In this document: positions 7,608 to 56,557 of the stretch, in pieces
How positions within the stretch are numbered: the first letter of the stretch is position 1
Layout: each line of letters opens with the position of its first letter
Origin: Frondihabitans sp. PhB188
GTDB taxonomy: Bacteria; Actinomycetota; Actinomycetes; Actinomycetales; Microbacteriaceae
DNA length: 64,000 nt
Reading direction: 5' to 3'
NCBI RefSeq assembly: GCF_003752365.1
Contig: NZ_RJUO01000002.1
Coordinates: forward strand, 186,001 to 250,000
Made by a program: the position numbers and the translations under genes
Notes under the pieces: generated by a model
What the model was told of the DNA's origin: nothing
The model's database searches: none
Seen by the model: the letters and a program-made list of their open reading frames with translations, nothing else

Positions 7608-7637
7608 GGGGCGCAGGAACCCGAGTTCCTGCGCCCC
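7608..7637. terminator. Bidirectional terminator built from two copies of the 15-bp dispersed word
   Basis: GGGGCGCAGGAAC (7608-7620) and GTTCCTGCGCCCC (7625-7637) form a perfect 13-bp stem with a four-base loop between convergent genes. The right arm holds an exact copy of the dispersed word (7622-7636); the left arm is a 14/15 copy. Confidence 0.75.
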
Positions 7638-7671
7638 GCTCTGGTCACATCAGAGGGACCGGCGACCTGGA

Positions 7672-8514
7672 TCAGGCCGGCACGTAGTTGAACTCGTCGG
7701 GGTTCGGGCCGGTGCGCTCGTCCTTGTTGCGCATCGAGATGTCGGTCATGTCGATGTCGGAGAGCTCGAAGTCGAAGATGTCGAAGTTCTCTTTCACGCG
7801 CGACTCGGTCACCGACTTCGGGAAGATGATGTCGCCACGCTGGATGTGCCAGCGGAGCGTGACCTGAGCGGGCGACTTGCCGACGTTCTCGGCGATGCGG
7901 ACGATCGTCGGGTCGTCGAGCACGAGGCCCTGTGCGATGGGCGACCAGGCCTCGGTCGCGATGCCGTGCTCAGCGCCGAAGGCACGGAGGGGCTCCTGCG
8001 TCAGGTACGGGTGCACCTCGATCTGGTTCACGGCCGGGGTGACCGTGGTCTCGTTGGCGAGGCGACGGAGGTGGTGCTCCTGGAAGTTCGAGACGCCGAT
8101 GGAGCGCGAGCGGCCCGAGGCGTAGATCTCTTCGAGGGCCTTCCAGGTCTCGACGAAGTCGCCGACGCCGGGGAGGGGCCAGTGGATCAGGAACAGGTCG
8201 ATGTGGTCGAGGCCGAGAGCCTCGAGCGTGCCGTCGAACGCAGTGAGGGCGTCGTCGTGGTCGTGGAAGCCGTTGTTGAGCTTCGACGTCACGAAGATCT
8301 CGTCGCGGTCGATGCCGGACTCGGCGATCGCCTCGCCGACCTCTTTCTCGTTGCCGTACATCTCGGCGGTGTCGATGTGGCGGTAGCCGACCTCGAGCGC
8401 CTTCAGAGTGGCGGCCTTCGTGTCGGCGGGCTCGATCTGGAAGACGCCGAAGCCGAGCTGCGGGATCGTGCGGCCGTCGTTCAAGGTAATCGTGGGGACT
8501 GCTGAATCGGTCAT
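7672..8514 (-). CDS. Aldo/keto reductase (AKR5-like, 2,5-diketo-gluconate reductase type)
   Basis: 280 residues forming a single NADPH-dependent (beta/alpha)8 barrel. The catalytic tetrad is complete: Asp48 and Tyr53 in HIDTAEMYGNE, Lys78 in TSKL, His111 in LIHWP. Family signatures GVSNF, QIEVHPY and the C-terminal cofactor motif IFPKSVTESRVKEN are present. Such enzymes reduce aldehydes, keto sugars or methylglyoxal in the cytosol. ATG 8514 begins the conserved MTDSAVPTITLNDG segment; the frame stays open another 32 codons upstream, but that part is unlike the family. It converges on the TetR gene and shares its terminator. The physiological substrate is unknown. Confidence 0.9.
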   Translation of the reverse strand: MTDSAVPTITLNDGRTIPQLGFGVFQIEPADTKAATLKALEVGYRHIDTAEMYGNEKEVGEAIAESGIDRDEIFVTSKLNNGFHDHDDALTAFDGTLEALGLDHIDLFLIHWPLPGVGDFVETWKALEEIYASGRSRSIGVSNFQEHHLRRLANETTVTPAVNQIEVHPYLTQEPLRAFGAEHGIATEAWSPIAQGLVLDDPTIVRIAENVGKSPAQVTLRWHIQRGDIIFPKSVTESRVKENFDIFDFELSDIDMTDISMRNKDERTGPNPDEFNYVPA

Positions 8515-8844
8515 GGATCCATCGAACACCCCTCGCACTGGTGTCATTCCAGGTTTGACGACACCTAACGAGCCTGGTAACTTGGTCGATGGTGTTCTGA
8601 GACGAACCATCTACTCGACTCGCACCCGCACCGACTCGTACTGCTCCTCCCGGGGCACATTCCACCGAGTCCATCCCGTCAGACTTCACAGGCTGACACC
8701 AGCACGCCGACACTCGGCGTGTGCGACACACCTGCCTTCCCAGGCCGATCGTTCACCGCGATCCACCCGCCTGGGGGCCGCTGCTCGAAGAGAGCAGAGC
8801 CCTGAACAGCAGAGCGTCGCCACCACGCATCGAAAGACCGCACC
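8515..8844. other. 330-bp spacer between divergent genes, no gene recognised
   Basis: The reading frames here lack the local codon pattern. It must hold the promoters of the aldo/keto reductase and of the small plus-strand gene, but no convincing -35/-10 pair or dyad was found. Confidence 0.5.
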
Positions 8845-9132
8845 ATGACACAGACACTCAACCTCATCCGCATCGGCGGCACCGTCACCACGGCGCCCGC
8901 CCTCACCCACGACAACCTCGTGGAGTTCGTCGTCGTCGACGACAGCTCCCGCGAGTTCCTCGTCCGCCTTCCGCTCGCCGACCTCGGCTCCGAGGTCGCC
9001 CCGGGCGCCCACGTCCAGGCCACCGGCGCCGAGGGCTGGGTCGTTCCGGGCCGCACCTGGCGCGACGAGCCCAGCCGCACCATCCTCCAGGCGCACGAGG
9101 TGCAGCTCGGCCACCTGGCCTTCGCGGCCTAG
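8845..9132 (+). CDS. Small conserved-looking protein of unknown function (95 aa)
   Basis: 95 residues, acidic and soluble, predicted almost wholly as beta strands (LNLIRIGGTVTTAPAL, LVEFVVVDDSSREFLVRLPL, HVQATGAEGWVVPG). The pattern of strands with Gly/Pro turns suggests a small barrel, perhaps OB-like, but no motif allows a name. The frame has the strong third-position G/C bias of real genes here. The ATG follows GAAAG at about ten bases, and a strong terminator follows. Its neighbours (aldo/keto reductase, two-component system) give no functional clue. Confidence 0.65.
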   Translation: MTQTLNLIRIGGTVTTAPALTHDNLVEFVVVDDSSREFLVRLPLADLGSEVAPGAHVQATGAEGWVVPGRTWRDEPSRTILQAHEVQLGHLAFAA

Positions 9133-9147
9133 TCGGCTCCTGCCACC

Positions 9148-9179
9148 AACGGCGCCCACCCCTCGGGGTGGGCGCCGTT
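9148..9179. terminator. Strong bidirectional terminator
   Basis: AACGGCGCCCACCCC (9148-9162) and its exact complement (9165-9179) form a 15-bp perfect stem with a two-base loop, between the small plus-strand gene and the convergent response regulator gene. Confidence 0.8.
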
Positions 9180-9251
9180 CGTCGTCGATGCAGGAGATCC
9201 GCCCCGCGGCGTCGCTCCCCGCAGTGGCGCTCCCCTGCCGCGCCGCTTCGC

Positions 9252-13785: not shown

Positions 13786-13897
13786 GGGCGCAGGAACTGG
13801 CCGTCGGCCGACCGACGACCGCCGAGCCCGAGGTGGCCACGATCCGCAGCGAGCCGGCGAGAGGGTTCAGGCCCGGCGGAGTCGAGTTCCTGCGCCC
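13786..13897. repeat. Inverted pair of the dispersed 15-bp word in a non-coding spacer
   Basis: GGGCGCAGGAACTGG (13786-13800, 14/15) and CGAGTTCCTGCGCCC (13883-13897, exact) lie in opposite orientation 82 bases apart, within the 399-bp spacer between the protease and tetR genes. The rest of the spacer (13569-13967) shows no gene. Confidence 0.75.
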
Positions 13898-13967: not shown

Positions 13968-14588
13968 ATGGTTCCTGAACAACTGGGTCTCCGCGATCGA
14001 AAGCGCGAAGAGACCCGCCGCCGCCTCGAAGCGGCTGCCGTCGAGCTCGTCCTGAGAGACGGGCTCGAGCACGCGACCGTCGATTCGATCAGCGCTCGCG
14101 CCGACGTCTCGTCGCGCACCTTCTTCAACTACTTCGACACCAAGGAGGACGCGGTCCTCGGCATCCACGACGCCGTGCTCACTCGGGAGTCGGTGACGGA
14201 GCACATCGCCGCAACGGACGGCGTCGATGTGCTGGAGTCGACGCTCGTGCTGCTGCTCTCGCTGATCCGCCCGTCGATCGAGGGCGCCGCGCTGCACGAG
14301 TCGCGTGTCGAGCTCCTGAGACGGCACCCCCAGCTGCTCTCGCGCCACATGGTGCAGATGACGCGCATGGTCGACGATCTCGTCGCCGCCGTCACGCGCA
14401 TCCTCCAGCACGATCGCCCCGGCGTCACCCCGAGCCGCGCCGAGGCGGAGACCCTGCTCTCCCTCTGCGGCGGCGTCGTCCGCACCTCCGTGCGCGAGTG
14501 GATCGACGACGGGGCTCCCGAGCCCGCCGACGTGGTCCGCACGCGCGCCATCGAACTCGTCCGCTCTCTCATCGAAAGAATCACATGA
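13968..14588 (+). CDS. TetR-family transcriptional regulator of the downstream MFS exporter
   Basis: 206 residues. The helix-turn-helix domain (about 12-60) reads RDRKREETRRRLEAAAVELVLRDGLEH, then VDSISARADVSSRTFFNYFDTKEDAVLG; the R-T-F-F-N-Y-F-x-x-K-E recognition helix is typical of AcrR-like repressors. The C-terminal domain is helical with a TetR_C pattern. No Shine-Dalgarno sequence precedes ATG 13968, and a -10-like AAGAAT ends six bases upstream, so a leaderless transcript is likely. Its stop overlaps the start of the exporter gene (ATGA), so the two are made together. Drug-responsive repression of the exporter is the usual role and is inferred. Confidence 0.9.
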   Translation: MVPEQLGLRDRKREETRRRLEAAAVELVLRDGLEHATVDSISARADVSSRTFFNYFDTKEDAVLGIHDAVLTRESVTEHIAATDGVDVLESTLVLLLSLIRPSIEGAALHESRVELLRRHPQLLSRHMVQMTRMVDDLVAAVTRILQHDRPGVTPSRAEAETLLSLCGGVVRTSVREWIDDGAPEPADVVRTRAIELVRSLIERIT

Positions 14589-16258
14589 CCACCGTCGCCC
14601 CCGCGCCCACGAGCGCCACCGGCACGTCGAAGCGCGGGATCCTGCTCGTCTTCGCCGGCCTCATGGTCACGATGCTGCTCGCATCGCTCGACCAGACCAT
14701 CTTCTCGACGGCCCTGCCGACCATCGTCGGCGAGCTCCACGGCGTCGACCAGATGATCTGGGTCACGACCGCCTTCATACTCGCCGAGACGATCGTGCTG
14801 CCCGTCTACGGCAAGCTCGGCGACCTCATCGGCCGCAAGAGCCTGTTCATCGTCGCGATCGCCATCTTCATCGGCGGGTCCGTGCTCGGCGGGCTCGCCG
14901 ACTCCATGCCGTCGCTGATCGTGGCGCGCGCTATTCAGGGCCTCGGCGGCGGCGGTCTGATGATCCTCGCTCAGGCGATCATCGCCGACGTCGTCCCCGC
15001 CCGCGAGCGCGGCAAGTACATGGGGATCATGGGCGGCGTCTTCGCCTTCTCGAGCGTCGCCGGCCCGCTCCTCGGCGGCTTCTTCACCGATGGCATCGGC
15101 TGGCGCTGGGCGTTCTGGATGAACGTGCCGCTCGGCATCCTGTCGATCGCCCTCGCGGTGTTCTTCCTGAAGCTGCCGCGCCGCGCCGACCAGGGCAAGC
15201 CCCGGATCGACGCCTACGGCATGGCTCTGCTCGCCATCGCCTCCACCTGCCTCGTGCTCGTCACGACCTGGGGCGGCAACCAGTACGACTGGAACTCCCC
15301 GCAGATCATCGGCCTGTTCGCCGGCCTCGCGATCTCAGGATTCTCGTTCGTAATGGTCGAGCGCAGGACGGCCGAGCCGATCATGCCGATCCACCTCTTC
15401 AGGGCTCCGAACTTCGTCTTCACGACCGCAGCGACGCTGATCATCGGCATCGCGATGTTCGGATCGCTCGCCTACATCCCGACCTACCTCCAGATGGTCA
15501 CCGGCTCGAACGCCACCCAGGCGGGCTTCCTGATGATCCCGATGATGGCGGGCCTTCTGATCACGTCGATCGCCGCCGGCCAGATCGTCTCGAAGACGGG
15601 CCACTACAAGTGGTTCCCCGTCGTCGGCATGGTCATCGTCGCCGGAGCCCTCGCCCTCATGAGCACCATGACCGCCTCGACCGCGGTGTGGATCATGTGC
15701 CTCTACTTCGCCCTGATGGGCATCGGCCTGGGCCTTGCGATGCAGATCCTGACGCTCGTCGTGCAGAACACGTTCCCGCTTCGCGAGGTCGGGACCGCCA
15801 CCGCCGCCAACAACTACTTCCGCCAGATCGGCGCCTCGCTCGGCGCCGCGGTGGTCGGCAGCATCTTCGTGTCGCGCCTGACCAGCCTCCTGAGCGAGAA
15901 CCTGCCGTCCTCCTCGGCGGGCGCCACCGGCGGAACCGACTCCCTCACCCCCGAGCTCGTCAAGAACCTGCCGAGCGCGCTCAAGACCGCGGTGATCGAC
16001 TCCTACAACGACGCGCTGACCCCGATCTTCCTGATCATGGTGCCGCTCGTGCTCCTGGCCGCCGTGCTGCTGCTCTTCGTGAAGGAGGTGCCGCTCGCGA
16101 CGACTCTCGAGCAGTCGCCAGCCGAGGGCCTGTCGACAGGGTCGATCGCCGTCGTCCCCGCGGCCGCCCAGGGCGACGACCGGGCGCAGGGCGACGACCG
16201 GGCGCAGGGCGACGACCGGGCGCAGGAACTCGAGACCTCCTCCCGCTCCACCGTCTGA
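14585..16258 (+). CDS. MFS multidrug efflux transporter, DHA2 (EmrB/QacA) family
   Basis: 557 residues with 14 membrane spans. Diagnostic features are LDQTIFSTALPTIVGEL in TM1, WVTTAFILAETIVLPVYGKLGDLIGRK (motif A between TM2 and TM3), and motif C-like FSSVAGPLLGGFF in TM5. The C-terminal tail after about residue 505 is cytosolic and contains three exact hexapeptides of the type AQGDDR before AQELETSSRSTV. It is coupled to the upstream tetR by an ATGA overlap, and its product is a likely proton/drug antiporter. A frame opening further upstream overlaps tetR extensively, so ATG 14585 is preferred. The substrate is unknown. Confidence 0.92.
   Translation: MTTVAPAPTSATGTSKRGILLVFAGLMVTMLLASLDQTIFSTALPTIVGELHGVDQMIWVTTAFILAETIVLPVYGKLGDLIGRKSLFIVAIAIFIGGSVLGGLADSMPSLIVARAIQGLGGGGLMILAQAIIADVVPARERGKYMGIMGGVFAFSSVAGPLLGGFFTDGIGWRWAFWMNVPLGILSIALAVFFLKLPRRADQGKPRIDAYGMALLAIASTCLVLVTTWGGNQYDWNSPQIIGLFAGLAISGFSFVMVERRTAEPIMPIHLFRAPNFVFTTAATLIIGIAMFGSLAYIPTYLQMVTGSNATQAGFLMIPMMAGLLITSIAAGQIVSKTGHYKWFPVVGMVIVAGALALMSTMTASTAVWIMCLYFALMGIGLGLAMQILTLVVQNTFPLREVGTATAANNYFRQIGASLGAAVVGSIFVSRLTSLLSENLPSSSAGATGGTDSLTPELVKNLPSALKTAVIDSYNDALTPIFLIMVPLVLLAAVLLLFVKEVPLATTLEQSPAEGLSTGSIAVVPAAAQGDDRAQGDDRAQGDDRAQELETSSRSTV
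16169..16222 (+). repeat. Three 18-bp tandem units ending in a copy of the dispersed word
   Basis: CAGGGCGACGACCGGGCG occurs three times without change (16169-16186, 16187-16204, 16205-16222) and codes for QGDDRA. The sequence then runs straight into CAGGAACTCG, making an exact copy of the dispersed 15-mer at 16218-16232, in frame as RAQEL. Confidence 0.9.
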
Positions 16259-19684: not shown

Positions 19685-19720
19685 GGGCGCAGGAACTCGC
19701 CGTCCCGAGTTCCTGCGCCC
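19685..19720 (+). terminator. Terminator made of two exact copies of the dispersed 15-bp word
   Basis: GGGCGCAGGAACTCG (19685-19699) and its exact complement (19706-19720) form a 15-bp perfect stem with a six-base loop, between the membrane-protein gene and the marR promoter. Confidence 0.8.
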
Positions 19721-23200: not shown

Positions 23201-24087
23201 GCGACCTCATGGCGCTGGAGACCCTGACGCCGGAGGCGGCGACGCCCCTCCGGCCTGGACGCCTGGCCGGTCGCCTGCGACTGGAAGGGGTGGGGTTCTC
23301 CTACCCGGTGCTCTCCGCGATGCCGACCGGCGGCGACCGTCGCGGGCCGTCCGACGCCCGCTCGCTCGTCGTCGACGCGGGCATCGCGCCGAAGGCGCCC
23401 GAGGCGCTGCACGACATCGAGCTCGATATCCCGGCCGGCGAGACGATCGCGCTCGTCGGCGAGACGGGAGCCGGCAAGTCCACCGTCATGAAGCTCCTCG
23501 CCCGCTTCTACGACCCCGACCAGGGCGCGGTCACGATCGACGGCCACGACCTCCGGGAGCTCGACCTGCGGGAGTTCCGGACGCAGCTCGGCTACGTTCC
23601 GCAGGAGGCGTTCCTGTTCACCGGGACCGTCCGAGACAACATCGCGTACGGCCGGACCGACGCCTCTCAGGACGACGTCGAACGCGCTGCCCGAGCCGTC
23701 GGCGCGCACGAGTTCGTGATGGAGCTGCCCGGCGGCTACGACCACCGGCTCACGGAGCGCGGCCGCTCCCTCTCGGCCGGACACCGGCAGCTGATCGCGC
23801 TCGCCCGCGCCGAGCTCGTCGACCCCGTCGTGCTCCTGCTCGACGAGGCGACGTCGAACCTCGACCTCCTGACCGAGGCGCGCGTGACCCGGGCGATGCA
23901 CCGTGTGGCCCGCGGCCGCACCACGGTGGTGATCGCGCACCGCCTGCAGACGGCGCGCGCCGCCGACCGCATCGGCGTTCTCTCGGGCGGACGGCTCGTC
24001 GAGGTGGGCACGCACGACGAGCTCCTGGAGCGGGAGGGACGGTACGCGAGCATGTGGCGGGCGTACGAGGCGGTCGAGGTCGGGTAG
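20218..24087 (+). CDS. Fused full-length ABC exporter (TMD-NBD-TMD-NBD)
   Basis: 1289 residues: two complete type IV ABC half-exporters in one chain. TMD1 covers about 25-310 and NBD1 about 345-585 (Walker A GPSGSGKS near 387, signature LSGGQ near 490, Walker B ILILDDATSAID). A roughly 100-residue Ala/Gly/Pro linker follows, then TMD2 (about 695-1000) and NBD2 (about 1015-1285; Walker A GETGAGKS near 1080, signature LSAGH near 1184, Walker B LLLDEATSNLD). NBD1 has Asp in place of the catalytic Glu and NBD2 has an altered signature. Both defects fall in the same composite ATP site, as in heterodimeric exporters like TM287/288 and BmrCD, which are normally two genes. Coupled to marR; probably exports drugs or lipids. 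Confidence 0.93.
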   Translation: MSADTTESSSKSGSPTTSAEGWVRRLWRYMLRHRASLIISLVASLAGSICQVVVPLIARQIVDGVIVEKTSPLAPWLALMVALAVASFGFTYLRRYRGGRVAIEVQNDLRTDMHDHLQRMDQSSLDRMSTGQLVSRANSDSSLVQSLLMMLPIMSGNVILMVLSLVVMFTLSPLLALVSLVMVPALVIIGYRMRAKVLPATWDAQQKEGEVAQIVDEDVAGVRVVKAFGRERREVETMSRVATDVYGAQMRSVRIQARFQPLLESIPTLAQVAILALGGWLAIEGQLTIGTFLAFTSYIAALMAPARQLAGVLAIGQQAQVGIERIFQLIDREPGIRDAPDAVVLDAVSGDLRFDGVAFSYDRAAGHPALEGLDLHLRSGERVALVGPSGSGKSTVAALVARFHDPDRGSISLDGHDLRGVTLASLRSSIGMVFEESFLFSDTIRANIAYGRPDAADDDIRKAAATAQALEFVDDLPKGFDTVVGERGLSLSGGQRQRIALARAILADPRILILDDATSAIDASTEQAIHDGLRDELAGRTVLLIAHRESTLHLADRIVVLEHGRVAAEGTHAELSESSALYRALITGQSEDQEFGAAAAAASGDVDALAARIPETATAPTPQSAPSAQAVPRGGLGGGLGAGGGHGGSRGAAALFAATPELLARVEALGPVRDAPSVDLAVETRQDRGFSLRTLLREFRKPLLLALVFVVIDAIAGLIGPYLVKTGIDSGVQKGSELVLFAAAGAFLLVTIVDLFDGMAETLVTGRAAQRIMLSLRIRIFAQLQRLSLDFYEREMAGRVMTRMTTDVDQFEGLIQNGLLSALVSIVTFIGVGVALVLIDAELGLLTLTVVVPLAVATVVFRARAALLYDVARERIAVVNADFQESLSGVRESQAFTHEAATMAHFARLARRFVDSRIAAQRLVALYFPFVQFLSGIADVIVLGVGATLIADGKLTSGDLIAFLLYIGMFFSPIQQLSQVFDAWQQTRVSVARIGDLMALETLTPEAATPLRPGRLAGRLRLEGVGFSYPVLSAMPTGGDRRGPSDARSLVVDAGIAPKAPEALHDIELDIPAGETIALVGETGAGKSTVMKLLARFYDPDQGAVTIDGHDLRELDLREFRTQLGYVPQEAFLFTGTVRDNIAYGRTDASQDDVERAARAVGAHEFVMELPGGYDHRLTERGRSLSAGHRQLIALARAELVDPVVLLLDEATSNLDLLTEARVTRAMHRVARGRTTVVIAHRLQTARAADRIGVLSGGRLVEVGTHDELLEREGRYASMWRAYEAVEVG

Positions 24088-24124: not shown

Positions 24125-24139
24125 CGAGTTCCTGCGCCC
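24125..24139 (-). repeat. Single exact copy of the dispersed 15-bp word
   Basis: CGAGTTCCTGCGCCC lies alone in the 153-bp spacer between the ABC exporter and LLM monooxygenase genes. No partner arm is nearby. Confidence 0.8.
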
Positions 24140-25281: not shown

Positions 25282-25361
25282 GGTGACGGCGCCGCCGGGC
25301 TGCGCGTGATGCGCGGTGCGACGGCGACTGCGCGCGGCGGCGGCGCCGCAGTTCCTGCGCC

Positions 25362-26360
25362 CTAGACGGTCGCGACCTGCATCGCGCCCGCCGTCAGCTC
25401 GACCGAGACGAGGCGCTCGGCGATGTGCGGCGACTGGTGGGCGATCATGAGCTCGTCGGCCTGGGCCCCCGCGGCGAACTCGGTCAGGTAGTCGCGGACC
25501 TCGTCGGCGGTTCCGACGGCGGAGAAGCGCATCATGTTGGCGATCTGGCGGCCGTTCGGCGTCGTCAGGAAGATGTCGATCTGCTCGTCGGTGTACTCGG
25601 GCGACGAAGGCGTGCGCGAGATCATGCCGCGGACGCGGGTGCGGCGGGTGGCGTCGAACTGCGCCTGCGCCTCCTCGTGGGTGGCGGCAGCGACGACGTT
25701 GACGCCGGCGAGGACGTGCGGCTCGGCGAGCTGCGCCGACGGGGTGAACTCGCGGCGGTAGAACTCGACGGCGTCGTGCAGGAGGTCGGGAGCGAAGTGC
25801 GACGCGAACGCGTACGGAAGCCCGTAGGCGGCGGCGAGCTGAGCGCCGAACATCGACGATCCGAGGATGTAGAGGGGAACGTTGGTGCCGGCACCGGGAG
25901 TCGCCTGGACTCCGGGCACGCGCGACTCGCCGCGGAGGTAGCCCTGCAGCTCGAGGACGTCCTGAGGGAACGACTCCGCGCTCATCGCGTCGCGGCGCAT
26001 GGCGTGCATGGTCACCTGGTCGGAGCCCGGCGCGCGCCCCAGCCCGAGGTCGATGCGATCGGGGTAGAGCGTCGCGAGCGTGCCGAACTGCTCGGCGATG
26101 GTGAGCGGCGCGTGGTTAGGCAGCATGATGCCGCCGGCGCCGAGCCGGATCGTCGAGGTCTTGCCCGCGACGTGCCCGATCAGGACGCTCGTCGCACTCG
26201 ACGCGATCGTCGCCATGTTGTGGTGCTCGGCGTACCAGACCCGGCCGTAGCCATTCGCCTCGGCAGCCTGAGCCAGCGCCACGCTGTTCTCGAAGCTCTG
26301 CGCGATCGTCTCCCCGGGAGAGACGGGAGCGAGATCCAGGATCGAGAGGGTTGTAGTCAT
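25362..26360 (-). CDS. LLM-class flavin-dependent oxidoreductase, YhbW/alkanal monooxygenase-like
   Basis: 332 residues with the full luciferase-like subgroup pattern: [14 protein letters not shown] at the N-terminus, [59 protein letters not shown], and [27 protein letters not shown]. This form is common in Gram-positive bacteria and uses FMN from a separate reductase. Only 80 bases separate its stop from that of the convergent LLM gene. A near copy of the dispersed word (25349-25363) touches its stop codon. It lies directly downstream of the glycan operon but its start is 44 bases past the PIG-L stop in the opposite gene order, so it is upstream of nothing obvious; role unknown. Confidence 0.88.
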
Positions 26361-35079: not shown

Positions 35080-35094
35080 GGGCGCAGGAACTCG
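35080..35094 (+). repeat. Single exact copy of the dispersed 15-bp word
   Basis: GGGCGCAGGAACTCG lies 41 bases before the dehydrogenase start and about 30 bases upstream of its likely -10 box, so it may be close to the -35 region. Confidence 0.8.
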
Positions 35095-36904: not shown

Positions 36905-37510
36905 TCAGGAACGGATCGTGGTCGTGACGTCGACGAGGCTCGGGTCGCGCGGGGCCGAGCCGAAGCCGAAGCGCACGGGAGGGTCCAGGGGCGCGAGGGC
37001 CCCGAGTTCCTGCGCGTCGAACTCGGCCTCGACACTGGCGACCCGCCGGGCCAGCGTGACGCCGTAGTACTCGCGGCGGCCGCCGCCCGCGGTGCCGGCG
37101 GTCGCGGATCCGGGAAGCAGGAACTTCGCCACCGGATTGATGAGCCGCAGCCACGCGGGGCGGGTGGCCACACTCCGCGGAACCGCCCTCAGGAGCCGTC
37201 CGAGCGGCGAGATGCCGCCGATCCCGAGCCGCAGCCGGAGCACGCCCGGGCCGGCCTCGACCAGGATCCCGCCGTCGACCTTCCGCCACTCGACCGGCAG
37301 GACGCGCACCTCGTCGAACTCGTAGGTCGCCGAGATGTAGTGCGCGACGTCCTCACGGGGTGCGAGGAGGACCCGGTGGCCGCTCCCCGTCTCGACCATG
37401 ACGTCGGCGAAGGAGCCCAGCGGCGACGTGTTCCAGAGCCCGACGACGAGCCGGGTTCCTGATTCGGTGCCGACGCCGGCGATACGGCCCACGAAGCGGT
37501 CAGTGGTCAT
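36905..37510 (-). CDS. Conserved-looking actinobacterial protein of unknown function (201 aa)
   Basis: 201 residues, soluble, mostly beta in the first 110 (FVGRIAGVGTESGTRLVVGLWNTSPLGSFADVMVETGSGHRVLLAP, then ATYEFDEVRVLPVEWRKVDGGILVEAG). The second half has a basic patch and a Gly-rich loop GTAGGGRREYYGV. There is no membrane span or signal peptide and no catalytic motif I can name. TACGGT ends six bases before ATG 37510 on the minus strand, again leaderless. It is divergent from the fructose operon but has no evident tie to it. A near copy of the dispersed word (37003-37017) lies in frame. Confidence 0.65.
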   Translation of the reverse strand: MTTDRFVGRIAGVGTESGTRLVVGLWNTSPLGSFADVMVETGSGHRVLLAPREDVAHYISATYEFDEVRVLPVEWRKVDGGILVEAGPGVLRLRLGIGGISPLGRLLRAVPRSVATRPAWLRLINPVAKFLLPGSATAGTAGGGRREYYGVTLARRVASVEAEFDAQELGALAPLDPPVRFGFGSAPRDPSLVDVTTTIRS

Positions 37511-41734: not shown

Positions 41735-41818
41735 GGGCGCAGGAACTAGCCCGCGATTTCGCGCACGGCGGCGACGGCTGCCTCGACGTCGGCGGCGACC
41801 GACCCGAGTTCCTGCGCT
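41735..41818. repeat. Inverted pair of dispersed-word copies at the 3' end of the cysteine desulfurase gene
   Basis: GGGCGCAGGAACTAG (41735-41749, 14/15) overlaps the minus-strand stop codon, and CGAGTTCCTGCGCTG (41804-41818) lies inside the gene, in opposite orientation 54 bases away. Confidence 0.7.
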
Positions 41819-42888
41819 GTGAGCCCGCCGCCCCAGGTGAACCGGACCGACGTCTGCGCAAGATCGGCGTCCATGCCGAGCGCCGTGAGGACGTGCGAGG
41901 GCTCGTCGCTTCCGGCGGCGCAGGCGGAGCCGCTCGACGACACGACGCCGCGGCGCTCCAGCTCCAGCAGGACGGCCTCCCCGCTCGTCCCCGGGAAGAC
42001 GAACGACGCGTTGGCGGGCAGCCGTGCCTCGGCGGGGCCGGTCAGGCGGGCGCCGGGTACGCGCGTCAGGACTTCTGCTACGAACGCGTCGCGGACGCCC
42101 GCGGCGGCATCCGCCCGAGCGCGTCTTTCCTGCTCTGCGATCCCGACGGCCACACCGAGCGCCACCGCGCCCGCTACGTTCTCAGTGCCGGAGCGCCGCC
42201 CGCGCTCCTGCCCGCCACCGTGGACGAGCGGCTCGAGCGGCACCCGGCCCGCGACGTAGAGCGCGCCGACGCCCTTGGGCGCCCCGAGCTTGTGTCCTGA
42301 GATCGACAGCGCCTGAACGCCGAGCACGTCGACGCGAGTGTCGAGCCAGCCTGCCGACTGGACGGCATCGGTGTGGAAGGGCACGCCGGCCTCGCGCGTC
42401 ACGGCGGTCAGGTCGGCGATGGGCTGCACCGTCCCGATCTCGTTGTTGGCGTGAGCGATCGAGACGAGCGTCGTATCGCTTCTCAGGACTCGTGCCAGCG
42501 CCGCCGGGGTGACGAGCCCGTCGTCGGTCAGGTCGACGTACGACACCTGAAACCCGAGCAGCCGCTCCAGGAAGAGCACCGACTCGAGCACGGCCTCGTG
42601 CTCGATGCGGCTCGTCACGAGGTGCCTGCCACGGGGCGAACCGAGCGCGATCCCCTTGATCGCGAGATTGTCGGCCTCGGTGCCGCCCGCCGTGAAGACG
42701 ACCTCCCCCGGGCGGCAGCCGAGCCAGTCCGCGATCTGAGCGCGGGCTGTCGCGAGTGCCCGAGCCGCCGACTCCCCGACCGTGTGGTGGCTTGACGGAT
42801 TGCCGAAGTCGCTCGTCAGGAACGGCCACATGGCCTCGACGGCCTCGCGGCGGGCGGGCGAGGTCGCGGCGGCGTCGAGGTAGAGCAC
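41746..42888 (-). CDS. NifS/IscS-like cysteine desulfurase of the NAD operon
   Basis: 380 residues, fold-type I PLP enzyme. The PLP Lys (about residue 201) lies in SISGHKLGAPKG, the catalytic Cys (about 323) in SSSGSACAAGSDE, and TGGTEADN is replaced by TAGGTEADNLAI with EHEAVLE and HTDAVQSAGW also present. It releases sulfur from cysteine as a persulfide. Its place directly after nadA-nadB-nadC, ten bases behind nadC, mirrors other bacteria in which a dedicated desulfurase supplies the 4Fe-4S cluster of NadA. It is distinct from the sufS gene at the right end of the window. Start ATG 42888. Confidence 0.9.
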   Translation of the reverse strand: MLYLDAAATSPARREAVEAMWPFLTSDFGNPSSHHTVGESAARALATARAQIADWLGCRPGEVVFTAGGTEADNLAIKGIALGSPRGRHLVTSRIEHEAVLESVLFLERLLGFQVSYVDLTDDGLVTPAALARVLRSDTTLVSIAHANNEIGTVQPIADLTAVTREAGVPFHTDAVQSAGWLDTRVDVLGVQALSISGHKLGAPKGVGALYVAGRVPLEPLVHGGGQERGRRSGTENVAGAVALGVAVGIAEQERRARADAAAGVRDAFVAEVLTRVPGARLTGPAEARLPANASFVFPGTSGEAVLLELERRGVVSSSGSACAAGSDEPSHVLTALGMDADLAQTSVRFTWGGGLTAQELGSVAADVEAAVAAVREIAG

Positions 42889-42898: not shown

Positions 42899-43795
42899 TC
42901 AGGCGTCAGCGCGGGCGAACCCGGCGGGCGTGCGTCCGGCAGGAACGTCGACGTCGATGTCGAGCCCGAGGTCGAGCGCGCGCACGCTGTGGGTCAGCGC
43001 GCCGACCGAGATGAGGTCGACCCCGGACGCCGCGATGGCGGCGACGGTGGTCAGGTCGACCCCGCCGCTCGCCTCCACGAGGGCTCGTCCGGCCACGAGC
43101 TCGACTCCTGAGACGAGGTCGGCTGACGAGAAGTTGTCGAGCATGATCGTGTCGATGCCCGCCGCGAGCACGGCCTCGATCTGGTCGATGCGGTCGACCT
43201 CGACCTCGACGTGGGTCGTGTGCGAGAGCTTCCCCTTCATGGCGAGGAGGGCCTCGGTGACAGTCAGCCCCGACGCGATCAGGACGGCCAGGTGGTTGTC
43301 CTTCACGAGCACGGCGTCCGACAGCGAGAAGCGGTGGTTGCGACCCCCACCCGCGACGACGGCGTCGCGCTCGAGGGCGCGGAGCCCCGGTGTCGTCTTG
43401 CGGGTGTCGACGATCTGGGCCCGGGTGCCCTCGGTGAGAGCGACGTACTGAGCTGTCAGAGTGGCGATGCCGGAGAGTCGCTGCGTCAGGTTGAGAGCGA
43501 CTCGCTCGGCCCGGAGCAGAGAGCGGGCCGAGCCGCGAAGCACGGCGAGCGTCTGGCCCGCCACGAAGGCATCGCCGTCGGCGGCCTGGAGCTCGACCTC
43601 GGCGAGCGGGTCGACCTCGCTGAGAGTCGCGACGAGCACGCGCGTCCCGCTCAGGACGCCGGGCTCGCGAGCCACCACGGCCGCCGTCGCGGTCGCCGTC
43701 TCAGGAATGAGGGCATCGCTCGTGACATCGCCCCAGGGGGCGTCCTCTCGGAGCGCGGCGCGGACGACCTGCAGGATCGCGTCGTCAGTGAGCAT
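42899..43795 (-). CDS. nadC: Quinolinate phosphoribosyltransferase (carboxylating)
   Basis: 298 residues. It has AALREDAPWGDVTSDALIP at the N-terminus, the signature RVALNLTQRLSGIATLTAQYV, QIVDTRKTTPGLRALERDAVVAGGGRNHRFSLSDAVLVKDNH, and the C-terminal phosphate-binding VEASGGVDLTTVAAIAASGVDLISVGALTHS. It converts quinolinate and PRPP into nicotinate mononucleotide, the last step of the operon's pathway. ATG 43795 overlaps the nadB stop by 11 bases; the frame is open further upstream but only as a shadow of nadB. Confidence 0.96.
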   Translation of the reverse strand: MLTDDAILQVVRAALREDAPWGDVTSDALIPETATATAAVVAREPGVLSGTRVLVATLSEVDPLAEVELQAADGDAFVAGQTLAVLRGSARSLLRAERVALNLTQRLSGIATLTAQYVALTEGTRAQIVDTRKTTPGLRALERDAVVAGGGRNHRFSLSDAVLVKDNHLAVLIASGLTVTEALLAMKGKLSHTTHVEVEVDRIDQIEAVLAAGIDTIMLDNFSSADLVSGVELVAGRALVEASGGVDLTTVAAIAASGVDLISVGALTHSVRALDLGLDIDVDVPAGRTPAGFARADA

Positions 43796-45332
43796 GCTGG
43801 GGAACCTCTCGTGTCCACGTGATGGCGTGGGCGAACTCGTCGGATGGGAAGGGGAAGTCGGCCCGGTAGTGGGCGCCGCGCGACTCCTCGCGGGCGAGGG
43901 CTCCGGCCAGCACGAGGCGGGCCACGTCGAGCAGGTTCGTCGTCTCAGGATCATCGGTCGGCGCTGTGGCACCCGCGAGGGTCTCGGCGGCGGCGAGCAT
44001 CGTCTCTCCTGACCGCTCGACGCCGGCAGCCGACCACATGAGGTGCTGAAGATCCGGGCGCAGGAACTCGCGCCCGCCCCCGCCTTCCGCACCGGTCGGG
44101 GCGGGCCCGGGTGCCTCCACCTCGCGTTCCTGCGTCGTCGGAATCTCGTCGGCCACGATGGCCTCGATCGCGCGCCAGCCGAAGACCGCGGCCTCGAGCA
44201 GCGAGTTCGAGGCGAGTCGGTTGGCCCCGTGAACGCCGGTCGAGGCCACCTCGCCGACCGCGTAGAGGCCGGGGAGCGACGTACGCCCGCCGAGATCGGT
44301 CGAGATGCCGCCCATGAAGTAGTGCGCGGCGGGCGTGACCGGGATCGGCTCGGCGGCCCAGTCGAGTCCGGCGGCGCGCGTCGCCCGCGTGATGGTCGGG
44401 AAGCGCTTCTCGAGCGTCTCGCGGCCGAGAGCGGTGGCGTCCAGGTGGACGGGGAGTCCTGCCTGCAGGGCCATCTGCCGGGCGATGCCGCGCGCCACGA
44501 CGTCGCGCGGGGCGAGCTCGGCGCGACGATCCACGCCGGTCATGAAGCGTCGGCCGGCGGCGTCGAGGAGCACGGCGCCCTCGCCTCGGACGGCTTCCGA
44601 GATCAGGAAGCTGCCCGGCACAGCCAGCGCCGTGGGATGGAACTGGTAGAACTCGAGGTCGTCGACGCGCGCACCGGCACGCCAGGCGGCTGCCAGGCCG
44701 TCGGCCGTCGCGCCCGCCGGGTTCGTCGTGAACTCGAAGAGCTGCCCGGCGCCACCCGTGGCGAGCACGACCGCGTCGGCGCGAATCTCCAGCGGCTCCG
44801 TGCCCTCGCCGACACGAGCCATGAGCCCGGCGACGCGAGGTTCTCCGTCGGCGGTGATCAGGAGGTCCGTGACGAATGCGTGCTCGACGACCTCTACCCG
44901 CGATGCCGCAAGCCGCGCGATCAGGGCCAGGACGATCGCCCTGCCGGTCGCGTCGCCGCCGGCGTGGAGGACGCGCGCGCGGCTGTGCGCCGCCTCGAGA
45001 CCCCGGGAGAATCCTGATTCGTCGCCGTCGAAGCGAACGCCCCAGCGGACCAGGTCGGCGATTCGAAGGGGACCGTCGCCGCACAGAGCCTCGACGGCGG
45101 CGAGCACCGACAGTCCGGCACCGGCGGCCAGGGTGTCCTCGACGTGCAGCTCGACGGTGTCGTCATCGAAGACTGCCGCGGCGATTCCTCCCTGCGCATA
45201 GCGGGAGTTGCTCTCGTCGAGCGCGCCCTTGGTCAGGAGCGTGACGCTGTGGCCCAGTGCGTCGGCGTGGAGTGCCGCCGTGAGACCGCCGAGCCCCGAC
45301 CCGACGACGACGATGTTCCTGAGTTCGGCCAT
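43785..45332 (-). CDS. nadB: L-aspartate oxidase
   Basis: 515 residues, succinate dehydrogenase/fumarate reductase flavoprotein fold. Visible are the dinucleotide motif VVVGSGLGGLTAALHA, SRYAQGGIAAA, HSRARVLHAGGDATGRAIV, the active-site segment EFYQFHPTALA and Arg in SEAVRGEGAVL, PAAHYFMGGISTDLGGRTSLPGLYAVGEVASTGVHGANRLASNSLLEA for FAD binding. It oxidises aspartate to iminoaspartate for NadA. The C-terminal part (about 415-440) contains a low-complexity GAEGGGGREFLRP insert coded partly by an exact copy of the dispersed 15-bp word (44056-44070). One base separates its start from the nadA stop. Confidence 0.96.
   Translation of the reverse strand: MAELRNIVVVGSGLGGLTAALHADALGHSVTLLTKGALDESNSRYAQGGIAAAVFDDDTVELHVEDTLAAGAGLSVLAAVEALCGDGPLRIADLVRWGVRFDGDESGFSRGLEAAHSRARVLHAGGDATGRAIVLALIARLAASRVEVVEHAFVTDLLITADGEPRVAGLMARVGEGTEPLEIRADAVVLATGGAGQLFEFTTNPAGATADGLAAAWRAGARVDDLEFYQFHPTALAVPGSFLISEAVRGEGAVLLDAAGRRFMTGVDRRAELAPRDVVARGIARQMALQAGLPVHLDATALGRETLEKRFPTITRATRAAGLDWAAEPIPVTPAAHYFMGGISTDLGGRTSLPGLYAVGEVASTGVHGANRLASNSLLEAAVFGWRAIEAIVADEIPTTQEREVEAPGPAPTGAEGGGGREFLRPDLQHLMWSAAGVERSGETMLAAAETLAGATAPTDDPETTNLLDVARLVLAGALAREESRGAHYRADFPFPSDEFAHAITWTREVPQHAH
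44056..44070 (+). repeat. Exact copy of the dispersed 15-bp word inside nadB
   Basis: GGGCGCAGGAACTCG on the plus strand reads REFLRP in the nadB frame, in a Gly-rich linker that does not belong to the flavoprotein core. The insert looks tolerated rather than functional. Confidence 0.75.
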
Positions 45333-47536: not shown

Positions 47537-48415
47537 ATGTCGGTTCTCCTGAGCGCCACCCGCCGCCTTCTCGTCCTGCGGGGGCGGAGCACGGCCGACG
47601 CCGAGACGCTCCGCCGCGCGATCGACAACCGCGGCACCGCCGCCCCGATCCCCGCAGGCCTCCGCAAGGTCGCGTCCGTGACCGAGGAGCTCGTCGCCGG
47701 CCACCGGCTCGTCACGCTCACTCCCCTGTCGAACCCGTCGGGAGCGCACCTCGTCTACACGCACGGCGGCTGCTACGTCTTCCCCCTCGTCGGGCCGCAC
47801 TGGGGCATCCTGGCCGGGCTCATCGCCCGCACCGGCGTGAGCGTGAGCGTCCCCCTCTACGGGCTCGCGCCGGAGTTCACCGCGGTCGACGCCTATCCGT
47901 TCCTGAACGAGGTTGCCGAGCGGGCACGCGACGTTCACGGCGACCGCGTCTTCCTCGGCGGCGACTCCGCGGGTGCCGGCCTGGCGCTCGGCCAGGCCAT
48001 GGCCCAACGCGACGCCGGACTCCCTCCGGCGCGCGGCGTCGTCCTGATCTCCCCCTGGGTCGACGTGACCATGTCGAATCCCCGGGTGCAGGAACTCGCC
48101 CCGCTCGACCACATGCTCGCCCCCGCCGGGCTGATGGAGGCCGGCCGACTCTGGGCTGGGGGCCTCGACCTGCGCGACCCGCGCGTCAGCCCCCTCTACG
48201 GCGACCTCTCAGGACTTCCGCCCGTGCACACCTACCAGGGCGACCGCGACGTGTTCCTCGCCGACGCAGAGCTCCTGACTCGCGGCATCCGCGACGCCGG
48301 TGGCGAGGCCGAGCTGAGGATCACGCGCGGCGGCTTCCACGACTTTCCGGGCGCACCGTGGCTCCCGGAGGCACGGCTCGCCCTGGATCGGATCGCCGAC
48401 GTCCTGAGGTCGTGA
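47537..48415 (+). CDS. Alpha/beta hydrolase, hormone-sensitive-lipase type esterase
   Basis: 292 residues. The oxyanion motif is HGG (76-78) in VYTHGGCY, the nucleophile is Ser144 in GGDSAGAGLAL, the Asp lies in YQGDRDVFLADAE and the His in GGFHDFPGAP. This set defines the HSL (GDXG) family IV of esterases, cytosolic enzymes acting on short acyl esters. TAGGCT ends seven bases before ATG 47537, a likely leaderless start. It is divergent from nrtR but no functional tie to NAD metabolism is known. Substrate unknown. Confidence 0.9.
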   Translation: MSVLLSATRRLLVLRGRSTADAETLRRAIDNRGTAAPIPAGLRKVASVTEELVAGHRLVTLTPLSNPSGAHLVYTHGGCYVFPLVGPHWGILAGLIARTGVSVSVPLYGLAPEFTAVDAYPFLNEVAERARDVHGDRVFLGGDSAGAGLALGQAMAQRDAGLPPARGVVLISPWVDVTMSNPRVQELAPLDHMLAPAGLMEAGRLWAGGLDLRDPRVSPLYGDLSGLPPVHTYQGDRDVFLADAELLTRGIRDAGGEAELRITRGGFHDFPGAPWLPEARLALDRIADVLRS

Positions 48416-48457: not shown

Positions 48458-49315
48458 ATGCGTCTCGCCGTCCTCGGCTCCCCCATCGAGCACTCCCTCT
48501 CGCCCACCCTGCAGTCGACGGCGTACCGCCTCCTCGGGCTCGACCACGAGTACGGACGGCGCGAGGTGGCGTCGGGCGAGCTCCCTGACCTCCTGAACTC
48601 GCTCGACGACTCCTGGCTGGGTCTCAGCCTGACCATGCCGCTCAAGCGCGAGGTCGTCGCGATGCTCAACTCGGCGTCGCCACTGGTCCGACAGCTGGGT
48701 GTCGCGAACACGGTCGTCTTCTCAGGCACGGGGGCGGGCCGCACGATGGCCGGGCACAACACCGACGTCGACGGCATCACGCGCGCGATCTCGGAGGCGC
48801 ACGAGGGGCGGCACGAGCGCGTGGCGATCCTCGGCGGAGGTGCGACGGCCGTCTCGGCGCTGACAGCGGCCCACGAGCTCGGGGCGCGCTCGGTGTCGGC
48901 GTTCCTGCGCGATCCCTCCAAGGCGCAGGAACTCGAGGCGGTCGCCTCGGCCCTCGACATCGCGTTCGCCGTCGACTCGCTGTCGAGCGCTCCCGCGAGC
49001 GGGCCCCACGATTTCGTCATCAGCACTCTCCCCGGCGGGGTTCCGCTTCCGGAGATGACGCCGTCGTCGCCCGATGCCGTCCTGCTCGACGTCGCCTACG
49101 ACCCCTGGCCGAGCCCCCTCGCCTCGGCCTGGCGGGCCTCGGGCGCCACCGCCGTCAGCGGGCTCGACATGCTCGTGGAACAGGCGATCGGGCAGATCCG
49201 TCTCTTCACGGGACGGGCTCAGGACGAACCCCTCGATGGCGAGACGGGAATCAGGCAGGCCATGCGGGAGTCCGTAGGGCTTGCACCATCGGCCGCCGGT
49301 AGCCTCGACTTGTGA
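48458..49315 (+). CDS. aroE: Shikimate dehydrogenase family protein
   Basis: 285 residues. The substrate domain (about 1-100) has the GSPIEHSLSPTLQSTAY signature and GLSLTMPLKREVV with the catalytic Lys (residue 64 region), plus VANTVVF and GHNTDVDGI with the catalytic Asp. The NADP domain (about 105-245) has ILGGGATAVSALTAAHELG, and GLDMLVEQAIGQIRLFTG ends the fold. It interconverts 3-dehydroshikimate and shikimate. It is directly coupled to aroD by a four-base overlap. A quinate/shikimate catabolic role is possible but the sequence alone does not decide it. Confidence 0.92.
   Translation: MRLAVLGSPIEHSLSPTLQSTAYRLLGLDHEYGRREVASGELPDLLNSLDDSWLGLSLTMPLKREVVAMLNSASPLVRQLGVANTVVFSGTGAGRTMAGHNTDVDGITRAISEAHEGRHERVAILGGGATAVSALTAAHELGARSVSAFLRDPSKAQELEAVASALDIAFAVDSLSSAPASGPHDFVISTLPGGVPLPEMTPSSPDAVLLDVAYDPWPSPLASAWRASGATAVSGLDMLVEQAIGQIRLFTGRAQDEPLDGETGIRQAMRESVGLAPSAAGSLDL
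49300..49305 (+). promoter_or_regulatory. -10-like hexamer before the aroD start, inside aroE
   Basis: TAGCCT ends six bases before GTG 49312 and lies within the aroE 3' end. aroD could be both coupled to aroE and transcribed alone as a leaderless mRNA. Confidence 0.35.
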
Positions 49316-51636: not shown

Positions 51637-51651
51637 GGGCGCAGGAACTCG
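51637..51651 (+). repeat. Single exact copy of the dispersed 15-bp word
   Basis: GGGCGCAGGAACTCG lies 37 bases after the CDF stop. No facing copy is near, so it is unlikely to act as a hairpin here. Confidence 0.8.
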
Positions 51652-51742: not shown

Positions 51743-51793
51743 GATCCGCCGACGATGCTCCACGGCGCCGTCACGGTCGCGAACCTTGTCGGC

Positions 51794-52917: not shown

Positions 52918-54081
<1,164 letters not shown>

Positions 54082-54117
54082 GAGTGATCCTTCGAGGTTC
54101 GGAGACGGTCTGCTCTG

Positions 54118-54176: not shown

Positions 54177-54195
54177 GGACGGGAGAGAGGCCATC

Positions 54196-54243: not shown

Positions 54244-54255
54244 GGCCCACGCACA

Positions 54256-54285
54256 AGCGCCCGCCACCGTGAGGTGACGGGCGCT
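54256..54285 (-). terminator. Terminator of sodA
   Basis: AGCGCCCGCCACC (54256-54268) pairs with GGTGACGGGCGCT (54273-54285) with one mismatch and a four-base loop, 14 bases past the sodA stop on the minus strand. Confidence 0.75.
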
Positions 54286-54298
54286 AAGGGACGAACGA

Positions 54299-54922: not shown

Positions 54923-54992
54923 TGTTGTCGCTTTCTCTTGGGTGTGCCGCCGGATTGGGCGGTGCATTCCGCGGTGATTCGGAGTCGTTTCC

Positions 54993-55023
54993 AGCCTAGG
55001 ATCTCAAGTGCACTTGAGGTCAA
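54993..55023 (-). promoter_or_regulatory. SoxR box within a 19-bp-spaced sodA promoter
   Basis: On the minus strand TTGACC (55018-55023) and TAGGCT (54993-54998) are 19 bases apart, the over-long spacing typical of MerR-family-activated promoters. The perfect palindrome CTCAAGTGCACTTGAG (55003-55018) fills the spacer and differs from the enterobacterial SoxR consensus core at the two centre bases only (GC for TA) with the CCTCAAG...CTTGAGG arms largely kept. The predicted start of transcription is about 60 bases upstream of the sodA start codon. Confidence 0.8.
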
Positions 55024-55059
55024 GCTCCCACTCAGGTGAGAACTCGGTTTGGACGACAC

Positions 55060-55509
55060 ATGACGAAGACCGCAGGAGACGCCCTCTCCATCGGGGAGCT
55101 CGCAAAGCGCTCCGGCGCCACTGTGGCGACGATCCGCTTCTACGAGTCGAAGGGCCTCGTCCAGTCAACTCGCACGGTCGGCGGAACGCGCATGTTCCCG
55201 CGCCACGCCCTTCGACGCGTCTCGATGGTGCGGCTCGGAGTCCGGTTCGGCATCCCGCTCGCCGACATCGCGGCGATGTTCGACTCGCTCCCGGTTGATC
55301 GCGCGCCATCCCGCGCCGACTGGCAGCGCATCTCGAACGCCTGGAACACCCATGTCGAGGAGCGCCTCGCCACGCTCACCCGGATGCGCGACCAGCTCAC
55401 GGACTGCATCGGCTGCGGTTGCCTGTCGCTCGGAACCTGCTCCCTCCTGAATCCTGAGGACGAGCTCGCGGGCGACGGGGCAGGCCCCCAACGAGTCCTG
55501 CCCTCCTGA
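55060..55509 (+). CDS. soxR: Redox-sensitive transcriptional activator SoxR
   Basis: 149 residues, MerR family. The helix-turn-helix (about 9-55) reads LSIGELAKRSGATVATIRFYESKGLVQSTRTVGGTRMFPRHALRRV. The 2Fe-2S cluster cysteines are Cys116, 119, 121 and 127 in DCIGCGCLSLGTC. The C-terminal tail after residue 130 is short and not conserved. Oxidation of the cluster by superoxide or redox-cycling compounds activates target promoters. A GTG at 55036 in frame is possible but lies close to the operator; ATG 55060 begins the conserved domain. It is divergent from sodA and probably controls both. Confidence 0.95.
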   Translation: MTKTAGDALSIGELAKRSGATVATIRFYESKGLVQSTRTVGGTRMFPRHALRRVSMVRLGVRFGIPLADIAAMFDSLPVDRAPSRADWQRISNAWNTHVEERLATLTRMRDQLTDCIGCGCLSLGTCSLLNPEDELAGDGAGPQRVLPS

Positions 55510-55514
55510 TTCGC

Positions 55515-55520
55515 TACGAT
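55515..55520 (+). promoter_or_regulatory. -10 hexamer of the leaderless thioesterase gene
   Basis: TACGAT ends six bases before ATG 55527, with no Shine-Dalgarno sequence. It lies only five bases past the soxR stop. Confidence 0.45.
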
Positions 55521-55526
55521 CGATGC

Positions 55527-55985
55527 ATGTCAGAACATGAGGGCGACCCCGCAGGAACTCGAGTTCCCGCGTCCGATCCCGACTCCATCAACTTCCGCAC
55601 GCGCAAGTGGGTCCGTCCTGAAGACCTGAATGCCAACGGGTCGCTGTTCGGCGGGTCCCTGCTCCGCTGGATCGACGAGGAGGCCGCGATCTACGCCATC
55701 CTCCAGCTCGGCAACGGCTTCGTCGTCACGAAGTACATCTCCGAGATCAACTTCGTGTCGAGCGCAGTCCAGGGCGACCTGATCGAGATGGGCCTGCGCG
55801 CGACGCACTTCGGCCGGACGTCGCTCACCATGCGCGCGGAGGTGAGGAACATGGTCACGCGCCAGAGCATCCTGACGATCGACAAGATCGTCTTCGTGAA
55901 CCTCGGACCGGAGGGCCTGCCCCTCCCCCACGGCTACACCGACATCACCTACGACCGCGACCGGATCCCGGGGTCCATGGCCTGA
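55527..55985 (+). CDS. Acyl-CoA thioesterase, YciA-like hotdog-fold protein
   Basis: 152 residues. The hotdog domain (about 20-140) contains TRKWVRPEDLNANGSLFGGSLLRWIDEEAAIYAI, the usual N-x-x-G-x-x-x-G-G-x-x-x-x-x-x-D/E region of YciA/BFIT thioesterases, followed by INFVSSAVQGDLIEMGLRATHFGRTSLTMRAEVRN. Members cleave acyl-CoA in the cytosol. The first 20 residues are variable and include a short palindrome, GCAGGAACTCGAGTTCC at about 55552-55568, made of two overlapping halves of the dispersed word. It follows soxR closely; no functional tie is evident. Confidence 0.88.
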   Translation: MSEHEGDPAGTRVPASDPDSINFRTRKWVRPEDLNANGSLFGGSLLRWIDEEAAIYAILQLGNGFVVTKYISEINFVSSAVQGDLIEMGLRATHFGRTSLTMRAEVRNMVTRQSILTIDKIVFVNLGPEGLPLPHGYTDITYDRDRIPGSMA

Positions 55986-56050
55986 AGCGCGCACCAAGAC
56001 GTGCTCGCTAGGCTGACGCCGTCCTCCCGAAATCGATCCGAAGAGAGCCC

Positions 56051-56422
56051 ATGTCAGTCGTCAAGATCAACGCCATCCACGTGCCCGAGGGCCACGGAGC
56101 CGAGCTCGAGAAGCGCTTCGCCGCTCGCAAGCACTCGGTCGACGGCGCCGCCGGCTTCGAGGGCTTCCAGCTGCTCCGCCCGATCAAGGGCGAAGACCGC
56201 TACTTCGTGGTGACGACGTGGGCCGACGAGGCCAGCTTCCAGGACTGGGCCGAGAACGGCGCCAAGGCGGCTCACGGCCACGGCGGCTCGGCCCCGCACG
56301 GCGACGGACACGCCGACAGCGCCGGACACGGCGCCCAGGCTGCGGCGGCCGACGGAGCCACCGCGCCCACGCCTGTCGCCACGGGCGCCGACCTCCTCGA
56401 GTTCGAGGTCGTCGAGCTCTAG
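56051..56422 (+). CDS. mhuD: MhuD/IsdG-type heme-degrading monooxygenase with His-rich insert
   Basis: 123 residues of the antibiotic-biosynthesis-monooxygenase fold. The start MSVVKINAIHVPEGHGAELEKRF, the segment GFEGFQLLRPIKGEDRYFVVTTWADEASFQDWA and the end PVATGADLLEFEVVEL closely resemble mycobacterial MhuD. The catalytic trio is exactly placed: Asn7, Trp66 and the heme ligand His75. Such dimers degrade heme to iron plus mycobilin-type products without CO release in MhuD. Residues 76-107 form a Gly/Ala/Asp insert containing His77, 83, 87 and 93, where MhuD has only eight residues. AAGAGAG precedes ATG 56051. Heme iron use is inferred from the family. Confidence 0.88.
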   Translation: MSVVKINAIHVPEGHGAELEKRFAARKHSVDGAAGFEGFQLLRPIKGEDRYFVVTTWADEASFQDWAENGAKAAHGHGGSAPHGDGHADSAGHGAQAAAADGATAPTPVATGADLLEFEVVEL

Positions 56423-56557
56423 CCCGGAAGGGGCGAGCCGGAGCGGCGGTGGCGGGTGCGGAGACGGACGCCGGGCGCGGCTGCGGTGCGGCTCGGCGGC
56501 GGTTCCGCAGTTCCTGCGCCCCTGGTCGTCTCGTCGACCGGATGGCACCATGGAGGC

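Follow-up and report, generated by a model that had tools for sequence, protein, structure and literature searches.

A 2016 review describes sequence-specific DNA uptake in two families, Pasteurellaceae and Neisseriaceae (PMC5031613), and the receptor proposed for the uptake signal sequences (USS) of Pasteurellaceae is a minor pilin (PMC5031613, PMC12616744). Two members of Microbacteriaceae, Rhodoluna lacicola and Aurantimicrobium photophilum, are reported to be naturally transformable (PMC11577799), and so is Micrococcus luteus, via Tad/Flp pili (PMC4322843). Among the matches listed in the open-access literature, no report of uptake sequences in Microbacteriaceae or Actinomycetota was found. 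Here, we analysed a stretch of 64,000 nt from Frondihabitans sp. PhB188 (Microbacteriaceae; contig NZ_RJUO01000002.1, positions 186,001 to 250,000), in the following called the window, which contains dispersed copies of the 15-mer GGGCGCAGGAACTCG, and traced this word through the whole genome, the genus and the family. The word is real, resides at the DNA level, is species-specific and constitutes one dialect of a family-wide signal. By analogy, we further propose, at a probability of roughly 55%, that it could be the form taken locally by a signal for self DNA that pervades the genome and works like the DNA uptake sequences (DUS) of Neisseriaceae.

Nine exact copies of the 15-mer lie in the window, five on the plus and four on the minus strand, of which seven are intergenic by our own gene calls and two coding; allowing up to three mismatches, 38 matches were counted, compared with a mean of 7.8 and a maximum of 16 in 100 dinucleotide shuffles. 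A sequence-only reading of the window had listed these nine copies on both strands, and all were recovered at the same coordinates, including the in-frame copies it had placed in an MFS exporter and in nadB (residues RAQELE of the MFS protein and REFLRP of a NadB-like FAD protein). Its ten near copies are also real, four with two mismatches and the remaining six with one, but three positions had to be shifted (25349 to 25348, 41804 to 41805 and 48086 to 48084). Across the genome, 3.79 Mb in 10 contigs, 114 exact 15-mers were found, split 58 to 56 between the strands, while the control, the pattern read backwards, gave 0; the 13-base core GGCGCAGGAACTC reaches 276 copies.

For comparison with a codon-aware background, which had been suggested together with the word, genes were called by a simple codon-usage script, and expectations were derived from synonymous-codon shuffling within genes and from a Markov model between them. 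Excess was observed in both compartments, with 150 occurrences of GCAGGAAC in genes versus 27.7 after synonymous shuffling, and 50 between genes versus 2.2. Since this excess survives synonymous shuffling and is also present between genes, the signal lies in the DNA and not in protein or codon choice. The anatomy of the word was resolved in an own-genome sample of 464 kb, consisting of the window and 20 stretches chosen for holding copies, in which GCGCAGGAACT is the most over-represented 11-mer. Of its 109 copies, 71 fall within genes, 35 between them and 3 on gene edges, corresponding to densities of 177 per Mb in coding and 594 per Mb in intergenic DNA, both inflated by the copy-based choice of stretches. 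The coding copies are read 38 times in sense and 33 times in antisense and use all six frames, with readings that include GCA-GGA-ACT (13) and GTT-CCT-GCG (9). On both sides, strong conservation of the flanks is gone within about 3 bases. A C-rich bias, weak at about 0.1–0.3 bits, extends over about 30 bases downstream of the word (window and stretches L009–L028). The 74 positions of GGCGCAGGAACTC on contig 1 are clumped beyond random (coefficient of variation 1.35, P about 0.005), with a largest gap of 116 kb (P 0.014).

Comparison among relatives, likewise suggested beforehand, revealed a species-specific copy number and, in the congeners, sister words on a shared core. The 13-mer with its 276 copies occurs only 1 to 5 times in each of six congeners; it is present in 142 of 199 family genomes, its own included, and no other genome holds more than 9 copies. 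In congener samples of 120–140 kb each, chosen for synteny to the window, GCAGGA words head the codon-aware list for coding DNA in all six: GCAGGATC with its shifted forms leads in five, and the sixth, G005, over-uses GCAGGATGC and GCAGGAGC, all of them sister words with the same core. The leading coding words of G005 are GCAGGATG, GCAGGAGC and shifted forms, and additional dialect words are GCAGGAGC in G001 and GCAGGATGCC in G004. A weaker excess of GCAGGATC is also seen in the genes of the own genome (94 versus 23.2). Related words around one core occur in all seven Frondihabitans genomes and in genus g47, with a plain intergenic excess in six of the seven. GCAGGATC itself extends to g47, and no such word appears in 19 of 20 other genera sampled at 20 kb; genus g14, a candidate user of GCAGGATC from raw counts, was rejected because its samples lack such a word as top match.

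Many of these other sampled genera of Microbacteriaceae show a sister word, CGGATGC. Samples of 120–157 kb from four genera gave observed over expected counts in genes of 75/22, 109/27, 134/44 and 140/30, with nearly all frames raised and 2.6–3.6 times the expectation between genes, and, when the word of each genome was compared with shuffles frame by frame in G104, G031, G033, G130, G167 and G039, the excess covered all or nearly all six frames. We surveyed the family by the ratio of the whole-genome CGGATGC count to that of the reversed word, with a threshold of at least 3, which is reached by 113 of 199 Microbacteriaceae genomes and by at least one genome in 55 of 76 genera, compared with 1 of 110 genomes from 16 other families of the order. 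The sequence-only reading had named no such motif as known for this family, yet words of this kind prove to be widespread in it. In the five surveyed Frondihabitans genomes and g47, the ratio is 1.0–1.1, as expected if these lineages changed their word. In genus g85, G167 displays a ratio of 1.9 versus 6.8 and 8.4 in the two other surveyed species, and was predicted beforehand to own a substitute word. Within 80 kb, this word was found to be CGGATCC, with 99 occurrences in genes versus 23.7 expected and all six frames raised, at 14 versus 17.8 for CGGATGC. G039 (ratio 1.95) likewise uses CGGATCC (29 versus 5.7). CGGATGC lies below its control (0.3–0.85) in g35, g51, three of four g10 genomes and two of four g14 genomes, and g45 and g50 also belong to the genera low in this word. 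With regard to accessory or foreign DNA, the signal is lower in the 12 windows with a GC content below 0.68, and six Microbacteriaceae phages, counted irrespective of the dialects of their hosts, contain 80 CGGATGC versus 59.8 expected and 47 CGGATCC versus 51.9; a thymidylate-kinase search of phages gave no Microbacteriaceae phage among the matches listed.

Machinery for natural transformation is present in the own genome, where the search for com- and tad-type genes yielded ComEA, ComEC, a PilB-type pilus locus and a Tad-type locus. comEA adjoins comEC, and the pilus locus encodes two PF00437 ATPases, PilB and one that inspection suggests is PilT, together with PilC, a major pilin, three minor pilins and a prepilin peptidase (named by inspection). 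Within the genus, PilB is 92–95% identical and the minor pilins are 29–53% identical. Minor pilins and ComEA are candidates for a sequence-specific surface receptor. In the mechanism we envisage, the competence machine would have a reader at the cell surface, either a pilin of Tad or type IV kind or ComEA with its helix-hairpin-helix, that binds the word on double-stranded DNA, ComEC would import one strand, and recombination would return word-bearing tracts to chromosomes. Repeated biased uptake could then let the word accumulate wherever selection tolerates it, and a change of the reader would allow a new dialect to spread. The more far-reaching version, in which Microbacteriaceae possess a family-wide self-DNA code (CGGATGC, with dialects CGGATCC, GCAGGATC, GCAGGATGCC and GGCGCAGGAACTCG) that evolved independently of Neisseriaceae and Pasteurellaceae, is read in natural transformation by a Tad/ComEA-type machine in monoderms, and acts through switches between sister species as a barrier to gene exchange, we put at slightly below even odds.

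Genome-wide excess on both strands, in all frames, in genes and in spacers, together with dialects on a shared core, agrees with the uptake signal that the sequence-only reading had suspected, but its supporting argument from terminator pairs proved weak. The two inverted pairs it named (recovered at 7609–7636 and 19685–19720) do form strong hairpins (−38.4 and −36.8 kcal/mol; z-scores near −6), yet neither is followed by a U-run, so that they are only putative terminators; the folding of another, imperfect pair at 55547/55560 is no stronger than that of shuffles (z −0.79). GCGCAGGAACT is densest in convergent-gene spacers of the own genome, at 1.33/kb versus 0.30–0.57/kb. Outside the own genome, the argument from pairs is weak.

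A number of observations weigh against the uptake-signal interpretation. Of 10 genomes tested for inverted pairs, the own genome and G130 alone hold more than expected, so that such an excess was rejected as a general feature; of seven Frondihabitans genomes, a clear maximum of density in convergent spacers is limited to the own genome and G003. The word of G004 is missing from the top words of its intergenic DNA, and comEC there is split over two frames although the word is enriched in genes; the split match (L103, L104) suggests either a frameshift in this competence gene or a faulty assembly. The low-CGGATGC genomes G100 (60 kb) and G040 (20 kb) showed no clear substitute word. Ten kilobases inside the 116-kb gap of contig 1 carry genes that by inspection resemble those for cytochrome oxidase and bc1, so that this part looks like respiratory-chain core genes and not like a genomic island. 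Copies are not conserved above other hexamers (GCAGGA 0.29 versus a median of 0.25, 63rd percentile), so above-background conservation of single copies was not seen, and only 4 own-genome dialect sites coincide with a dialect site of a congener; this low conservation and the few shared sites indicate turnover of copies rather than strict site-by-site function. ComEC is found in 198 of 199 family genomes, and its near-universal presence therefore does not discriminate. PilB, called by a best PF00437 E-value below 1e-100, is found in 103 of 199 family genomes; a CGGATGC ratio of at least 3 is reached by 66 of the 103 genomes with PilB and 47 of the 96 without (P 0.003, kinship ignored), with medians of 4.0 and 2.9. 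A type IV pilus as the necessary reader is consequently not supported, as 47 of 96 PilB-less genomes reach the threshold. Because enrichment does not require PilB, a Tad- or ComEA-linked reader is more likely if the word is an uptake signal.

Other explanations must be weighed against uptake. The word could be the binding site of a nucleoid or chromosome-organising protein that differs from one species to the next, which would fit its dispersal on both strands through genes and spacers. We regard this as unlikely, since copies are conserved no better than other hexamers and just the 4 dialect sites are shared with a congener; in addition, we know of no chromosome- or nucleoid-protein system with species dialects. 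Rather improbable in our view is a Chi-like signal, which would be read inside the cell by a recombination nuclease-helicase and would protect self DNA or start recombination. A short, very frequent chromosomal word with little or no excess in the six phages would be in line with it, as would the over-representation of Chi motifs in core genomes described in PMC8022716, where polarity is given as a defining property. However, strand counts are even (344 versus 369 in the sampled Frondihabitans blocks and g47), CGGATGC is split into 198 leading and 198 lagging occurrences in three genomes whose contigs were assumed to start at the origin, and the word differs among congeners and spans 12–15 bp in the own genome. 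The lack of strand or leading/lagging bias disfavours strand-oriented Chi- or KOPS-like signals in general. A short mobile or REP-like element spread through the own genome, which had been offered as an alternative, would account for inverted pairs with hairpins and for species-specific abundance, but is very improbable and was rejected. Strong flank conservation ends about 3 bases out, with just the weak C-rich bias downstream; a Y1 transposase (PF01797) was found in 0 of 7 genus genomes, with the control search positive in 5 of 14; an inverted pair of the word occurs in none of the other genomes scanned in our collection; and 17 of 23 coding GCAGGAAC sites are gap-free in or beside the site in aligned orthologs, as substitutions are, and the words of relatives likewise differ by substitution. 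Finally, chance was rejected, and a by-product of codon, codon-pair or mutation bias is hardly credible, even though many enriched 8-mers in these genomes look codon-pair-like (e.g. CGAGCACG), given the shuffles, the reversed control, synonymous shuffling, an excess that covers intergenic DNA and either all six frames or nearly all of them, and 276 copies of the 13-mer versus 1–5 in congeners.

The copies within the window are compiled in Table 1. At the alignment columns of the copy at 37003, three congeners (G004, G005 and G006) carry GCAGGATC.

Table 1. Exact and near copies of the 15-mer in the 64-kb window, with their strand and surroundings.
Feature	Position	Strand	Context
Inverted pair	7609..7636	7609-7623 (+, 1 mismatch); 7622-7636 (-, exact)	15-bp hairpin; convergent spacer 3' of TetR gene
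Near copy, 1 mismatch	13786..13800	+	spacer
Exact copy	13883..13897	-	spacer
Exact copy	16218..16232	+	in frame (RAQELE), near 3' end of MFS transporter gene 14585-16258
Inverted pair, both exact	19685..19720	19685-19699 (+); 19706-19720 (-)	spacer; hairpin -36.8 kcal/mol
Exact copy	24125..24139	-	spacer; flanking genes end at 24087 and start at 24241
Near copy, 2 mismatches	25348..25362	-	3' edge of gene 25362-26360 (-)
Exact copy	35080..35094	+	divergent spacer
Near copy, 2 mismatches	37003..37017	-	gene 36905-37510 (-), DAQELG
Near copy, 1 mismatch	41735..41749	+	overlaps end of gene 41746-42888 (-)
Near copy, 2 mismatches	41805..41819	-	aminotransferase class-V gene, TAQELG
Exact copy	44056..44070	+	antisense in NadB-like FAD-binding gene 43785-45332 (-), REFLRP
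Near copy, 1 mismatch	48084..48098	+	alpha/beta hydrolase gene, RVQELA
Near copy, 1 mismatch	48921..48935	+	shikimate dehydrogenase-like gene, KAQELE
Exact copy	51637..51651	+	spacer
Near copy, 1 mismatch	53757..53771	-	GFO/IDH/MocA oxidoreductase gene, QAQELE
Near copy, 2 mismatches	56507..56521	-	spacer

Further words were noticed along the way. In the intergenic DNA of G003 (L049–L054) and G005 (L057–L062, L075), CCTGAGTTGC (CAACTCAGG) is strongly over-represented, and it is possibly a regulator or promoter site; its 3 copies in the 464-kb own-genome sample all lie in the window (1886, 50190 and 59123). The intergenic word GGCAAAACCGGAGA in G004 (L063–L068, L076) and the word CGATTCCGGAGA in G001 (L069–L074) look like species-specific sites. 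The own genome has a second word in CCGATCCGG (e.g. window positions 32435, 50663, 53389 and 57098), CCGATCCGGC occurs 22 times between genes in the own-genome sample versus 0.7 expected, and a short tandem array of GCACGGC units spans window positions 59152–59214.

Should the uptake-signal interpretation prove true, Microbacteriaceae would represent a third case of such a code, in Gram-positive Actinomycetota, which would imply that these codes evolve repeatedly and do so without an outer membrane. The many natural dialect switches could then be used for finding the receptor, and the word would mark which Microbacteriaceae exchange genes by transformation. Even with a different function, a family-wide, switching chromosomal word calls for an explanation.

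Among known systems, REP/RAYT elements resemble the word in their palindromic pairs in spacers; they differ in that no Y1 transposase was found here, that no element is shared beyond the word itself and that many copies sit inside genes. Chi sites (PMC8022716) are, like the word, short and over-represented on the chromosome, whereas here no replication-strand polarity was detected and the word changes within one genus. Pasteurellaceae USS, as described in PMC5031613 and PMC12616744, share dialects and a dispersed self-signature, with a different sequence in a different phylum and with an uptake map, where the word described here is known from genomes. Neisseriaceae DUS number in the thousands, compared with 276 13-mers, their sequence is unrelated, and inverted pairs are not general in our monoderm actinomycetotal hosts; we claim a likeness in sequence pattern and not membership. 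This likeness comprises, following the description of DUS in PMC3630211, a short word over-represented in genes and spacers, dialects around a conserved core, two dialects within one genome and inverted pairs.

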